IMG/VR virus record: IMGVR_UViG_3300020404_001624
Span: 1-23,812 of that record
Origin: a virus
Reading direction: 5' to 3' (one strand)
DNA: 23,812 nt
This document shows, in pieces, positions 11,078 through 16,283 of the stretch. Position 1 is the stretch's first letter. Every line of letters starts with the position of its first letter. The notes under the pieces were generated by a model. That model saw only the letters and a program-made list of their open reading frames with translations, did not search any database and was not told the DNA's origin. A program made the position numbers and the translations under genes.

Positions 11078-12468
11078 TATGTGCTAAGTATGATTGTTTG
11101 AATTTTTTTAGTGACAATTTTTTCATTATCAAAATTAAACCCACCAATATTATTTAATCCAGGTTTACTACCAACAGTCGTGGTAGAGGGTATTTGTTTA
11201 TTCATTGATACAGCTTTTTCAACTATAATAACAGTATCTCCAGATTTTTTCTTTGATTTCATATCATCTCTTACCTTTAAAGGAGGTATGATTGAAGCAA
11301 CATCTTTCTTATCACCAGTCATTGTGACCTCATTTACCGCATTTATTGTTTCTTTAATTTGTGCAATACCTGCAGTAACTCCAGTATTTACATCCTTATT
11401 TTGTGCACTCTGAATTTCTTGCGATTCAGTTTCTTGTTTTCCTTTACTACCAAAAAGATCTTCAAAAAAGTTATTTAATCTTGCTGTAACACCACCTGAT
11501 TCTTCTTGTTTTTTTTCTAATTCATTATCAGCGTTCCTATTCTCTATAGTTTCACCCTGACTTTGTGCATTTTTTGAAGCAATCTCTTTAAACTCTTCTG
11601 TATCTTTGATACCACTTATCAAATTTTGATTATTAGGGTCTGAATCTTTTTGTGCTATTGTTGTGTTTCCTGATGTGTCAACGGCAGTAAACTCCGTTGC
11701 TACTTTTTCATCCTTCAAATCTACTTTTGTATCCGTTGCATTATTTTCAGTTTCATTTGCATTAGTTTTTGTTTCAACGAGATTAAAATCATTCTCATTT
11801 AAAATTTCTTCATTACCTTGATAGTCTTCAAGATTAGCATTTTTAGGATCATTAAATTTATTTCCGACTGCAATCAAATCTTTTCTTATTCTGCCTAAGT
11901 TAGCATTTGCACCGTCAAGTGCATCTTCATTCTGTTTCTGTAATTGTAGTAAATCTTGTATCGGAAGACTTTGAAATAAACTAACAATTCCATTTTTTAA
12001 GCTGATGAAAAAATCACCAACATCATTTACAAAATTTGTCAAATAACCAATAAGATCTCGTATACGATTTATTACACCTGTAATACTTTTTATAATTTGT
12101 GGTAAGTTATTAACAAACCACCCTATCAATACTATACCAAAGAAATCTAAGATTCTTCCAAGAAAACCTTTCGTGCTCCTAGAGATTACATTACCTTGTT
12201 TTTTTGCAACTCCAGTTACACTTGATGACTCTAATTCATCCTCTCTCTGTTTTCTTCTTACGTTTTCCCTTCTCTTTTCAAAATAATTATTATCATTACT
12301 TATCAAAGTTCTTTTAAATTTATTATTTTCGTTTGTTAATTGAGCAATTTCAGATGCAGTTTGTCTAGCACTTGCCAAACCCTTTGTGAAATTTGTAACT
12401 GAACCTCTTATTGTGTTGAGACTGATAGATGATTTCAGTACTGCGTTTCTTCTATCCTTTATTGACAT
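11077..12468 (-). CDS. Hydrophobic coiled-coil tail/hub protein (463 aa), tape-measure-like
   Basis: Residues 1-80 are charged helix (KRRENVRRKQREDELE). Residues 98-117 are a hydrophobic motif STKGFLGRILDFFGIVLIGW, followed by amphipathic helices to about 175 (SITGVINRIRDLIGYL, FFISLKNGIVSLFQ). The rest is long, polar, acid/Lys/Asn-rich, probably extended or disordered sequence. The 98-117 motif lines up with residues 129-148 of the upstream 531-aa protein (about 9 of 20 identical), each after a charged coiled coil, so the two are likely paralogues in part. Start and upstream stop overlap as TAATG. Position between the tape-measure candidate and the gp27-like hub suggests a hub component or second tape-measure-type protein (role of T4 gp28/gp29). 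Exact function is not known. Confidence 0.65.
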   Translation of the reverse strand: MSIKDRRNAVLKSSISLNTIRGSVTNFTKGLASARQTASEIAQLTNENNKFKRTLISNDNNYFEKRRENVRRKQREDELESSSVTGVAKKQGNVISRSTKGFLGRILDFFGIVLIGWFVNNLPQIIKSITGVINRIRDLIGYLTNFVNDVGDFFISLKNGIVSLFQSLPIQDLLQLQKQNEDALDGANANLGRIRKDLIAVGNKFNDPKNANLEDYQGNEEILNENDFNLVETKTNANETENNATDTKVDLKDEKVATEFTAVDTSGNTTIAQKDSDPNNQNLISGIKDTEEFKEIASKNAQSQGETIENRNADNELEKKQEESGGVTARLNNFFEDLFGSKGKQETESQEIQSAQNKDVNTGVTAGIAQIKETINAVNEVTMTGDKKDVASIIPPLKVRDDMKSKKKSGDTVIIVEKAVSMNKQIPSTTTVGSKPGLNNIGGFNFDNEKIVTKKIQTIILST

Positions 12469-14063
12469 TATACCACCACATTATACATTGATTCAGAGAG
12501 TCCGATAAAATTATTCGCAAAATCTGATGAGGGGATGTTAGGTATATAATCACTTGGTGTTTTTGAACTCGTCGCCATGTTTGCCATCGCTGATGTGTCT
12601 TGTTTATCGTTATTACCTAAAGGAATTAATTGAATATTTGGTGATTCTGTGAAAGATGAAATGAGTTCTGAGACTTTTGAATCTTTTTTTAACGTAGGTG
12701 TAATAGCAGAAGCATTTTTTGTATCGACCAGTTCATAACTTAGGGTTTCATCTACATTAGTGGGTTTTACTTTTTCATTATTGTCAGATGATACTTTTGA
12801 TTCTTCTCTCCTTCTTTCATTTAAACCTGATGCCTCATCAGCAATTTTTCCACCAGTCATAGCACCAATTGTTCCACCAGTGAGTCCTGCTAATAAACTA
12901 GTTCCGATTGCACCAATCACAGTTGAAATTGGTTCTGGTATAAGCGTCATCGCTATAAAAAAACCAGCGAGTCCACCTAAAGCTGTTCCAGTGGCTCCCA
13001 TTCCAGCCTCTTTATTACTTTGACCTTCTTTTTTTCTACCTCGGAAATCAAGAAAAGCAAAAAGTGTATCCAATCCAAGAGTACCTTTACTCAATGTGGC
13101 TTTTTTAGCAGCAACTAAACCTGAATTTTTAGGTTTAACACCCTCAAGGGATTCAGTAACTACTTTTTTTCCAGTTACACTCTTAAAGAAATTTGCTATT
13201 CGTTCTCTAAATCCAGGTTGACTAACAGTAATACCAGTACCAGCTGTTATTCCTACTCCTGATGTTATATTTTTAGCATTAAGTAACTTTTTTCCTTGTT
13301 TTGATAATGCTTCTGGACCTTCCTCTACTAATTTTTTTGCAAACTTAACAAAATTCTTTCTAAAACTATTTACATTATTTTTAATAAAGTTTAAGGCACC
13401 TGTAAATGGTCTTGCTAGTAAAGCAGAAAATGCAAATTTGACTGCTAAACCTGCAATAGAACCCACTGATGTTACTAGAGCACCGACACCAATAACCATA
13501 GTAGTGGCAATTGCTGCTAAAACACCCAAGTCTCTTAAAAATTTTTCTTTGAATTTCTTCAGTTCATCAATATTACCTTCCGATTGTAATCTAAGAAATG
13601 ATAAAGATTTATCGGTTAACCACCCACTAGCTAATATGAATAAAAATTCGGAAAGTCTACCTAATATACCCTGTGTCTTTGCTGCGACTCTTCTTACTGG
13701 TGACAATAATGCGTTTTGTATTTTTCTTTCTAAGTCAGATTCTTTTCCCTCTCTAAGTCCTTGCTCTGCTAATATTGCTTCTCTTTTTTGTTTAGATGCT
13801 TCTCTCTGTCTATCTAACTGGTCACTTATCTCTAAATTTGATTTTAAAACTCCAAGAGAATTATTTAATGTTGATACTTGTTCAGATATATTTGTTAATT
13901 GTACTGCGACACCTGATATAGCAAGTGAATTTTGACTAAGTAAGTTGGTAGTTTGTGGATCTGGTTGTGGTGGTAAAATCGAACGACCAGTAAAGACATT
14001 AGAAGATATACTTCTCCTAATACCTCTAAGTCCTCCAGCTATCGGTGATCCAAACTCATCCAT
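12468..14063 (-). CDS. Tape-measure candidate (531 aa)
   Basis: Layout: residues about 50-120 are a predicted coiled coil with repeated charged residues (LDRQREASKQKREAILAEQ); 129-148 is the KTQGILGRLSEFLFILASGW motif; 179-222 is a Gly/Ala/Val-rich hydrophobic helix pair; 280-345 is basic; 354-405 is a second Gly/Ala-rich hydrophobic block; the C-terminus is polar. Long helical proteins with hydrophobic Gly/Ala stretches are typical of tail tape measures, which set tail length and later enter the host membrane. T4 gp29 is 590 aa, so length is compatible. It follows directly after the frameshifted chaperone-like pair, the usual place for a tape measure, and its ATG overlaps the short frame by 8 nt. 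Assignment is by architecture and position. Confidence 0.6.
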   Translation of the reverse strand: MDEFGSPIAGGLRGIRRSISSNVFTGRSILPPQPDPQTTNLLSQNSLAISGVAVQLTNISEQVSTLNNSLGVLKSNLEISDQLDRQREASKQKREAILAEQGLREGKESDLERKIQNALLSPVRRVAAKTQGILGRLSEFLFILASGWLTDKSLSFLRLQSEGNIDELKKFKEKFLRDLGVLAAIATTMVIGVGALVTSVGSIAGLAVKFAFSALLARPFTGALNFIKNNVNSFRKNFVKFAKKLVEEGPEALSKQGKKLLNAKNITSGVGITAGTGITVSQPGFRERIANFFKSVTGKKVVTESLEGVKPKNSGLVAAKKATLSKGTLGLDTLFAFLDFRGRKKEGQSNKEAGMGATGTALGGLAGFFIAMTLIPEPISTVIGAIGTSLLAGLTGGTIGAMTGGKIADEASGLNERRREESKVSSDNNEKVKPTNVDETLSYELVDTKNASAITPTLKKDSKVSELISSFTESPNIQLIPLGNNDKQDTSAMANMATSSKTPSDYIPNIPSSDFANNFIGLSESMYNVVV

Positions 14064-14235
14064 TACGTTCTTGTTGTGCTTTTAAATTTTCCTCTTCAAT
14101 ATACTGTTGTAAAAGCGAAATGTAAATTTCTCTTTCCCAAGGTATCATATTCTCAAGTTCAGTTAAACTATATTTATGATGTTGCATCAAAGAAAAATTC
14201 AACTTATAGTATGACACGAGATCTTCATGTGCCAT
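14056..14235 (-). CDS. Short -1 frame (59 codons), probable frameshift tail of the gp26-like chaperone
   Basis: From the ATG at 14235 this frame encodes MAHEDLVSYYKLNF, then SLTELENMIPWEREIYISLL and a terminal acidic helix ending QQERNG. The IPWERE..Y core, an acid-aromatic helix, resembles the T part of G/GT-type tail chaperones. The frame is open without interruption from the slippery site at 14244-14250, so a -1 shift would add Arg-Ile-Ser plus these 59 residues to the first 238 residues of the gp26-like protein, giving about 300 aa. The ATG lies inside the predicted hairpin stem, which disfavours free initiation. It overlaps the following 531-aa gene by 8 nt. Whether the 59-aa protein is also made alone is unknown; I favour expression as a fusion. 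Confidence 0.75.
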   Translation of the reverse strand: MAHEDLVSYYKLNFSLMQHHKYSLTELENMIPWEREIYISLLQQYIEEENLKAQQERNG

Positions 14236-14250
14236 ACTTATCCGAAAAAA
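14208..14250 (-). promoter_or_regulatory. Probable programmed -1 ribosomal frameshift signal
   Basis: On the minus strand the heptamer T TTT TTC (14250-14244) is in the right phase (codons TTT and TTC, Phe-Phe) three codons before the gp26-like stop. After a 5-nt spacer (14243-14239) comes a hairpin: AGTATGGCAC (14238-14229) pairs with GTGTCATACT (14217-14208), 10 bp with one G-U pair and an 11-nt loop. Both parts match the classical X XXY YYZ plus stem design. Confidence 0.85.
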
Positions 14251-14957
14251 CTCTGTAACCCCTCTAGTTTAATTTCACTATCTACCTTAGTATTTGGATT
14301 TGTTACCTTTACAATATGAGATAATTTTGGCATAGTTGTAAAGAAATTTTCAACCATCTTAAATTGATTTGAATTTAGTGATTCAATAAAATCGGATAAT
14401 TCTTTCTTTGTACATTCTTGATGTGACCATGTTTCTTCTTCTGAATAAACTTGATCAATACAAGATGAAATTAAATCAAAAGTATCATCAACCTTCATAT
14501 TTTCAACTTGGTCGAAATTTGTTTTTATAAACTCATTCAATGATGGATATTTCATTCTCAAAGTATAAGTATCATCCAACTTGATATCAGTTTGATGATT
14601 TTCATCTTTTTGAACTTTTATATCATCAATATTGATTGACATAGGCACTTGTGTCTTCCCATCATCAGGACAAGTGACCATCACTTCAATTTGCTCTCCT
14701 ACAGATTTACCTCTTATATTCAAGAACAAATATTCAATGTCAAACGTTGAGAGTTTATCAACTTTTGTTCCCTTTGTTAAAATACATTTTGCTAGAACAT
14801 CTTTTACTGCTCTTGCTATTTGTTTTGTATCTTGGGATTCCATCGCTAAAATCAATATTTTTTCCTCCTTTACTAAAAAAGGTCGATATTTGATTTTTCT
14901 ATTAGACGATGGCAAATTCAACTCATAAGTAGGAGTTGTTATGGTTGGTAATGGCAT
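14238..14957 (-). CDS. 26: gp26-like baseplate/tail-assembly protein (239 aa)
   Basis: The protein resembles the T4_baseplate family (T4 gp26 type): N-terminal LPSSNRKIKYRPFLVKEEKI, then ILILAMESQDTKQIARAVKD with a helical DVLAKCILT. A beta centre has GEQIEVMVTCPDDGKTQ, and C-terminal helices include WSHQECTKKELSDFIESL. In T4, gp26 is assigned to hub assembly. Here it lies after the tube-initiator-like gene and before the tape-measure candidate and ends in a probable -1 frameshift site, so it may act as the short form of a tail-assembly chaperone pair. A T4-type late promoter (14983-14990) precedes it by 25 nt. Whether it stays in the virion is not known. Confidence 0.75.
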   Translation of the reverse strand: MPLPTITTPTYELNLPSSNRKIKYRPFLVKEEKILILAMESQDTKQIARAVKDVLAKCILTKGTKVDKLSTFDIEYLFLNIRGKSVGEQIEVMVTCPDDGKTQVPMSINIDDIKVQKDENHQTDIKLDDTYTLRMKYPSLNEFIKTNFDQVENMKVDDTFDLISSCIDQVYSEEETWSHQECTKKELSDFIESLNSNQFKMVENFFTTMPKLSHIVKVTNPNTKVDSEIKLEGLQSFFG

Positions 14958-14999: not shown

Positions 15000-15818
15000 T
15001 TAATCGAACAGCGTGGATTGACTACCAAATCTTCTATTAACTCCCCCTTTTATTAAGTTGGCAGGTAAGTCCCTATAATTTGTTCCTTCATTAAGAAGTG
15101 CTAAATCATCTCTCATAATTCGACTTAAAGAATCAGCATTATCTCTTTGTTGTTTTCTTGTTCTTGAAGCATCTACACGACCTTGATTATTTAAATCTAA
15201 ACCTAAAGCTCTTGCTAATGAACTTGATTCACCACATACATACCTATCAAAACTAAATGATACACTTGCTTTTAAGACTTGTGAATTATTATATGATACT
15301 CTTGTAGAATTAAGTGCTAAAGGGAATAATCCAATAAATCTATATTCAATGAATTGGAAATGATTTTTTTCAAATTTAACGACCCTTGTATCATTTGATT
15401 TATATTCATCTGGATATTTCATTTTAAAATGATATGTGTCAGATGATGGGTCAGCCACTGAACCACTAGAAATAAATTCAATCCAATGCTCTAAAAACTT
15501 CAAAGATTTATATTCATTATCAACATAAAAATCAAAATTAACTTGAGTAAAATTTCTTGTATGTGCAAATCTTTCAATAACACCTTGATAATCACCAGCA
15601 GTATTTAAAGTTGCCATTGCACTGCCTGGCAAAACTGCATCACTACATAGTAATCCTACGTTATCTGATATAAAACGATCATTTACTCCTTTTCCTCTTA
15701 AAAATTTTCGACAGTCTCCTCGTGGTAAAACAAATTTTACTAAAAATTGAGATGTCTGAGCTACATTTTGTAACTTAGGCATTATATCTGATATTTGTCT
15801 CGGTCTTGGTGCTGGCAC
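15000..15818 (-). CDS. 54: gp54-like baseplate tail-tube initiator (272 aa), GTG start
   Basis: The product starts (GTG)PAPRPRQISDIMPKLQNVA, followed by TSQFLVKFVLP, then LLCSDAVLPGSAMATLNTAGDYQGVIERFAHTR (residues about 57-88). It continues with FDFYVDNEYKSLKFLEHWIEF and KMKYPDEYKSNDTRVVKFEK. This succession is that of tail-tube-fold proteins (gp19/gp54 family); the long C-terminal extension after SFSFDRYVCG favours the tube initiator gp54, on which the tube polymerises, over the major tube protein gp19 (163 aa in T4). The start is GTG because there is no in-frame ATG upstream in the 30-bp gap. It is divergent from gp4. The gp19/gp54 choice is the main uncertainty. Confidence 0.7.
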   Translation of the reverse strand: MPAPRPRQISDIMPKLQNVAQTSQFLVKFVLPRGDCRKFLRGKGVNDRFISDNVGLLCSDAVLPGSAMATLNTAGDYQGVIERFAHTRNFTQVNFDFYVDNEYKSLKFLEHWIEFISSGSVADPSSDTYHFKMKYPDEYKSNDTRVVKFEKNHFQFIEYRFIGLFPLALNSTRVSYNNSQVLKASVSFSFDRYVCGESSSLARALGLDLNNQGRVDASRTRKQQRDNADSLSRIMRDDLALLNEGTNYRDLPANLIKGGVNRRFGSQSTLFD

Positions 15819-15841: not shown

Positions 15842-15849
15842 TATTTAGA
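15842..15849 (-). promoter_or_regulatory. Late promoter (TCTAAATA) for the gp54-like gene
   Basis: Same octamer as at 15819-15826 but on the minus strand, ending 23 nt before the GTG of the gp54-like gene. Its first base pairs with the A of the gp4 ATG, so the two divergent promoters cross each other in a 31-bp block. Confidence 0.6.
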
Positions 15850-16283
15850 TGGCTTATAAAGGAAAATACTATCCATCTTTTCCTAAAAAATATAAAGGTG
15901 ATCCTACTAATATAATTTACAGGTCACTTTGGGAAAGAAAATTTATGGTATATTGTGATAAGAATAACAAAATACTAGAGTGGGGAAGTGAAGAGATTGC
16001 TCTCCCATATATTTCACCTCATGATAGACGTATCCATCGTTATTTTCCAGACTTTTATATTAAAGTTCAAGAGAATACAGGAAAAATAAAAAGATATCTG
16101 ATTGAAGTTAAACCACTCAAGCAAACTGTAAAACCAAAGAAACCAAAAAGACAAACCAAAGGTTATATCCGTGAAGCATTTGAATATGCAAGGAATCAAG
16201 CAAAATGGAAAGCAGCAAGAGAGTATTGTGCTGACCGTTTGTGGGAATTTAAAGTAATCACCGAAAAAGAATTAGATATATGA
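15849..16283 (+). CDS. 4: gp4 head completion protein (nuclease-like, 144 aa)
   Basis: Strong T4 gp4 (gp50/4) character. It starts MAYKGKYYPSFPKKYKGDPT like T4 MAYSGKW..KNISKYRGDP, followed by IIYRSLWERKFMVYCDKN, ILEWGSEEIALPY, HRYFPDFYIKV and YLIEVKP. It ends in the WKAAREYC and FKVITE motifs also seen in T4. Length is nearly the same (150 aa in T4). The PD-(D/E)xK-like residues Asp68, Glu86 and Lys88 are present; the family is related to TnsA-type endonucleases. In T4 it finishes filled heads before tail joining. It is the first gene of the rightward block and overlaps the next gene by 4 nt (ATGA). Confidence 0.9.
   Translation: MAYKGKYYPSFPKKYKGDPTNIIYRSLWERKFMVYCDKNNKILEWGSEEIALPYISPHDRRIHRYFPDFYIKVQENTGKIKRYLIEVKPLKQTVKPKKPKRQTKGYIREAFEYARNQAKWKAAREYCADRLWEFKVITEKELDI

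Follow-up and report, generated by a model that had tools for sequence, protein, structure and literature searches.

A marine T4-like myovirus very likely produces short and long tail assembly chaperones from gp26 and gp51 by a programmed −1 frameshift

The DNA analyzed here, referred to below as the window, is a 23,812-nucleotide (23.8-kb) IMG/VR virus record (IMGVR_UViG_3300020404_001624) of a marine T4-like myovirus, in which genes for gp48, gp53, gp4, gp32, PhoH, thymidylate synthase and tail fibres were recognised. The gp4 head-closure gene (15849–16283) was found to match a TnsA-like nuclease domain (PF08722, E=1e-23). Our analysis concerns the 3' end of the gp26-family gene and its neighbours, whose features are as follows:

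15000–15818, minus strand: tail-tube family protein, upstream of the gp26/gp51 pair (phrog_45, E=3e-29; PF23849, E=2e-14)
14238–14957, minus strand: gp26-family gene, the predicted short form (TAC-N), 239 aa (PF12322 T4_baseplate, E=4e-75; phrog_150 baseplate hub, E=3e-78)
14244–14250, minus strand: slippery heptamer T_TTT_TTC, in phase, with one sense codon between it and the 0-frame stop
14239–14243, minus strand: spacer of 5 nt between heptamer and stem, read from the sequence
14238–14240, minus strand: TAA, the 0-frame stop codon of the short form
14208–14238, minus strand: stimulator-like hairpin of 10 bp (5' arm 14229–14238, 3' arm 14208–14217)
14233–14235, minus strand: ATG of a free 59-aa gp51 frame, within the 5' arm of the hairpin
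14056–14244, minus strand: −1 frame with the gp51-family C-terminal domain (TAC-C), 62 codons plus stop (phrog_634 "baseplate hub assembly catalyst", E=1e-27)
12468–14063, minus strand: candidate tape measure protein of 531 aa, so labelled from its position; it overlaps the end of the −1 frame

On the minus strand the gp26 gene ends in CAG AGT TTT TTC GGA TAA gtATGgcacat, in which T_TTT_TTC takes in codons 237–238 of 239 and, read in the 0 frame, has the form X_XXY_YYZ a short way ahead of the stop. A ribosome slipping by −1 here would read S-F-F-R-I-S-M-A-H (product ...SFF-RIS-MAHEDL...) and would continue for 62 codons to a stop at 14056, giving a predicted gp26–gp51 fusion of 300 aa. In-phase heptamers of the type XXXYYYZ were found 68 times in the genes of the window (6,848 codons); for none but the one in gp26 does the −1 frame stay open for >38 codons, and the structure downstream of the gp26 site is among the strongest at the 68 sites. 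Each element of the site that the initial annotation had proposed for the end of gp26 (in-phase heptamer, 5-nt spacer, 10-bp hairpin and open −1 frame) was read directly from the sequence. The "chaperone-like tail" that it had described does exist as an open frame, but it belongs to the known gp51 family and is not an anonymous ORF. In the gene order that it had likened to that of lambda-like phages, a tube-family gene does lie upstream, but the tape measure label comes from position and from tape-measure-like features only, and the profile comparison of T4 gp29 with the ORF at 12468–14063 gave no match. We consider that ORF a candidate tape measure protein based on its place, its length variation and its hydrophobic segments, given that in close relatives the ORF next to the pair has hydrophobic segments and lengths anywhere between about 425 and 730 aa. 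This variation might be used to ask how the length of the tape corresponds to that of the tail in marine T4-like phages.

The junction between the two reading frames was then compared across the 80 closest IMG/VR loci, named phages and more distant IMG/VR sets. Among the 80 closest loci, TTTTTTC was present in 78 of 79 readable junctions, and over the whole set T_TTT_TTN was in phase in 212 of 230 distinct gp26–gp51 junctions, the last base being C in 149, T in 40, A in 20 and G in 3. The codon ahead of the heptamer was AGT, GAT, AAT, TCT, GCT or ACT, ending in T in all cases, and the last heptamer codon was TTC, TTT, TTA or TTG (Phe or Leu). Since the nucleotides are kept while the amino acids vary, selection acts on the nucleotides and not just on the residues. 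The arrangement GAT TTT TTC/T/G (X) stop recurs in pf16, Moby, Milchi, AsFcp_1, LPCS28, PhiW-14, Rhizobium and KVP40-like phages. When gp26 codon usage served as the null and each identity cluster was counted once, the chance of a codon-final T followed by TTT was about 10^-5 for the 16 clusters formed at 50% identity and 10^-10 for the 30 formed at 60%; at 40%, which leaves 7 clusters, it was 10^-2. All of the 171 scored relatives had their gp51 profile match in the −1 frame, and the length of this frame was 56–68 codons in each of the 202 complete junctions. Aligning the junction across T4-like relatives, as had been proposed together with the initial annotation, therefore upheld the suggested signal in its heptamer and −1 frame and, in at least two clades, in its hairpin, where compensatory changes were seen. 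The contrary pattern that had been named, a lost heptamer with a free ATG retained, was not seen in most relatives, given the heptamer counts above and the frequent lack of an early ATG.

It has to be asked whether gp51 might instead be a gene of its own, translated from the ATG at 14233–14235 by coupling to gp26 termination, with the terminating ribosome melting the hairpin and frameshifting being trivial or not occurring at all. Of 202 readable junctions, 108 (the window among them) do have an ATG in the −1 frame, and in some lineages it forms a stop–start overlap (TAATG or TGATG); public records annotate separate CDSs (e.g., P-SSM2 gp26 and gp51), and burial of the ATG by a hairpin is as expected for translational coupling. 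However, 94 of the 202 are without an ATG in the first ten −1-frame codons, although the conserved domain begins directly behind the slip site (e.g., RISLSHNSLEAYF), which makes a separate gp51 gene untenable in those junctions. Nor does such a gene agree with heptamer nucleotides that are kept while amino acids change, with the −1 placement of gp51 in every match, or with the fact that both the L074 product described below and T4-type gp51 are fusions, and a separate gp51 of 59 aa would be without the ~200-aa domain of T4 gp51 (PMC3037559). We regard two separate genes as a very improbable account of the locus, although a free gp51 peptide could be made where the ATG exists. The missing Shine–Dalgarno sequence before the gp51 ATG was dropped as evidence, as gp26 itself is without a clear one here. 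In ACG-2014i, ACG-2014d and LPCS28 (L120, L121 and L086) the gp51 frame is unannotated, and all three are without an early ATG there.

The fusion could also arise in the mRNA, if RNA polymerase added or dropped a U on the run of six T so that some transcripts encoded the fusion in frame. Conservation of six successive T with any base after them would agree with such slippage, but polymerase slippage usually needs runs of nine or more, for which six is short. Moreover, the run is of six T in most junctions and seven in 40 of 212, its phase relative to the codons is fixed, and a hairpin at 5–6 nt that covaries in at least two clades fits a ribosomal signal; we consider transcriptional slippage extremely unlikely. 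Taken together, the ATG-less junctions, L070 in the clade of the window among them, and the L074 fusion make a fusion product the simplest reading, and on the comparative sequence evidence as a whole a programmed −1 frameshift at the end of gp26 is very likely.

The 37-nt hairpin element of the window has a folding energy of −13.3 kcal/mol (z=−4.2, with 0 of 200 shuffles as good) and its 10 bp include one G–U pair; over 66 nt, z was −2.7. In 67 sequences of the window clade, 94% of stem cells were paired vs 21–51% for slid partners, and the pair of columns 21 and 35 was UA in 29, GC in 17 and AU in 16. This covariation ties a synonymous position, the third of an Ala codon, to a non-synonymous one, the second of a V/E/A codon, for which an RNA-level constraint is the natural reading. 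A second clade (in the range L166–L224), which has no ATG, carries its own GCCTCT/AGAGGC stem at the same spacing with one compensatory change, and this speaks for a stimulating role. In many other lineages the heptamer is present without a strong stem. In L166, L181 and L193–L220, the stop of the 0 frame comes 8 codons beyond the slip site and falls within the 3' arm of the GCCTCT/AGAGGC hairpin.

It had also been claimed from the sequence of the window that the hairpin hides the ATG of the short frame. The ATG does lie inside the 5' arm, and a masking role may be suggested by what is seen in about two lineages. Of 99 junctions with an ATG after the stop, 92 had it fully paired in the stem, and the mean downstream MFE was −13.4 in junctions with such an ATG vs −6.1 in those without ATG; a strong stem is mostly absent from lineages that have no ATG. 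When counted by lineage, this association reduces to ~2 clades, the window clade and the S-H34 clade, and we have given it up as strong evidence. The hairpin may have been selected to silence a free gp51 start and not to stimulate slippage, which would be compatible with frameshifting. The paired ATGs and the difference in MFE favor this, as does L070, which is nested in the clade of the window itself and has lost both ATG and stem with the heptamer still there, but the small number of lineages and the ATG-less clade with its own covarying stem speak against it, and we consider silencing as the selected role possible but somewhat unlikely. Both roles may apply. We suggest only tentatively, and with some doubt, that the hairpin is a two-purpose switch that stimulates the −1 slip and buries the sole free gp51 start, so that the C-terminal domain would occur solely within the long form.

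Two kinds of variant junction depart from the frameshift arrangement. L074 has lost 2 nt at the slip site, which puts gp51 in frame with gp26 (L074:3001–3891); the resulting fusion could be a real variant with the long form only or an assembly error. The fusion is located in a 236-kb contig whose flanks are otherwise closely similar to L055. In an Ackermannviridae-type minority of 17 junctions, gp51 is kept in the −1 frame and the heptamer is absent: the gp26 end is ATT TTC ATT or ATC TAA throughout in L095:3007–3971 and L126–L143 and in the EP75 group, and K452, D503 and BX-1 likewise have the −1 frame without the heptamer. Few of these junctions have an ATG able to start gp51, and most are without an early start codon in the −1 frame. 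A T TTY tetramer is possibly the only slip site left in these relatives, judging from their sequences, and it is a possibility that Ackermannviridae-type phages reach the same fusion by a different, heptamer-less route.

In T4 itself, gene 26 and gene 51 are divergent, and no frameshift can therefore join them. T4 gp51 (249 aa) consists of a PF12322 domain at residues 1–201 (E=4e-52) with the gp51 tail behind it; the phrog_150 match runs from one end to the other (3–248) and covers both parts. The PF12322-type N domain is thus common to gp26 of the window, T4 gp26 and T4 gp51. Profile comparison of marine gp26 gave E=3e-30 with T4 gp26 and E=4e-14 with T4-type gp51, and the T4 gp26 and gp51 families matched each other at E=1e-17. 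T4-type gp51 and the L074 fusion can be aligned over their whole length, and their structure models, which are confident (pLDDT 91 and 93), have their structural elements in the same order; models were made for long forms and gp26 only, as gp51 fragments misaligned with full proteins. In a gene tree of gp26 and T4 gp51 N-domains, each T4-type set formed a clade, with support of 85/69 for their joint placement, too weak to date the duplication. In one T4-type gene 51 homologue (L118:2501–3246) there is a frame change near codon 120, probably an indel or a sequencing error.

Based on these domain assignments, T4 has the short form (gp26) and the long form (gp51) as two divergent genes, and the phages studied here have one frameshifted gene. 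The initial annotation had set T4 apart as having separate hub-assembly genes, but had missed that these are the short and long forms, T4 gp51 having a gp26-type domain. It was reported in 2010 that gp51 of cyanophages and of a marine vibriophage is without ~200 N-terminal residues and that Aeh1 has no gp51 (PMC3037559). Frameshifting, which would supply ~200 residues from gp26, explains the short cyanophage gp51, and the "missing" gp51 of Aeh1 may be an ATG-less state like that of Aeromonas phage AsFcp_1. A review of T4 describes gp26 and gp51 as hub assembly chaperones, with gp51 not in the particle (PMC3004832).

We conclude with high confidence that the locus encodes the tail assembly chaperones (TACs) of a marine T4-like myovirus, in a short and a long form related by −1 frameshifting. 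Most ribosomes would end gp26 at 14238 and yield the 239-aa short form, and a minority, paused by the hairpin, would slip by −1 on U_UUU_UUC and yield a long form of ~300 aa with the C-terminal gp51 domain. By analogy with lambda gpG/gpGT, many short and few long forms may coat the tape measure protein, with the C-terminal domain recruiting tube subunits, and neither form would be expected to stay in the virion. Slippage, its efficiency and the chaperone role are what we infer for this phage. That gp26 has a long and a short chaperone form, as the initial annotation had it, is supported by the domain identity of T4 gp51 and by the L074 fusion. A Foldseek search of the PDB with the L074 and T4-type gp51 models gave no significant match, solved TACs (HK97 gp13, YqbN, Rbstp2171) included. 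The nearest solved TAC for the L074 model was 3FGX, which PMC9603447 calls a TAC, with a weak local match (probability 0.41, E=2.9), no TAC was among the top 50 Foldseek matches listed for the T4-type gp51 model, and nothing was found when the family profile was compared with PDB sequences.

The TACs of T4-like phages were identified by Vladimirov, Gautam & Davidson 2022, Virology 566:9-15, as related in PMC10885494 and PMC12846349. The PRFect paper takes from that work that in some T4-like phages the short and the fused product have a gene each (PMC10885494), and the phage Adele paper gives it as a source for poly-T frameshift signals in TAC genes of T4-like phages (PMC12846349). The T4-like TACs have the same two parts as the window, a short form and a long form that consists of the short domain plus a C-terminal domain. 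Judging from the sequences, the T4 genes meant there are probably 26 and 51. To the extent that the citing papers convey the work, the recasting of gp26 and gp51 as tail assembly chaperones is prior art, and what is apparently additional to it is the covarying hairpin with its proposed masking of the ATG, the natural fusion and the heptamer-less Ackermannviridae-type variant. These findings also fill a gap in the annotation of a phage group that is among the most abundant in the ocean and whose records give gp51 as a tiny separate gene or omit it. One protein pair occurs in three encodings, namely a frameshifted gene, two divergent T4 paralogues and an in-frame fusion, which offer a clean natural comparison of why the ratio of short to long form matters in tail length control.

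By profile, the products of the window are direct homologues of T4 gp51 (phrog_634) and gp26 (phrog_150). The difference is in their encoding: T4 has divergent genes 26 and 51, each with a PF12322 domain, so that its 249-aa gp51 has a gp26-type domain of its own, whereas the window has one gp26 gene and a −1 frame, with a gp51 part of only 59–62 codons and the rest supplied by gp26. The Adele TAC (Vandenendeviridae/Andersonviridae) resembles that of the window in having an invariant poly-T where TAC-N ends and a −1 frame without interruption, and was approached by the same comparative logic, but its motif is GTTTTT, compared with T_TTT_TTN in relatives of the window, and the phage families differ (PMC12846349). 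In common with lambda gpG/gpGT, the window has a heptamer near the end of the upstream gene, a −1 extension and an expected minority long product, and its pair has the lambda-like placement between a tube gene and a tape measure candidate. Unlike that of lambda gpG/gpGT, the window heptamer is U_UUU_UUN, and we know of no sequence relation between the two pairs. The tail-assembly frameshift was reportedly described as conserved in long-tailed phages by Xu, Hendrix and Duda in 2004. In a later account, the G–T frameshift is conserved among long-tailed phages "except T4" (review PMC5009743); the T4 relatives described here fit that rule.
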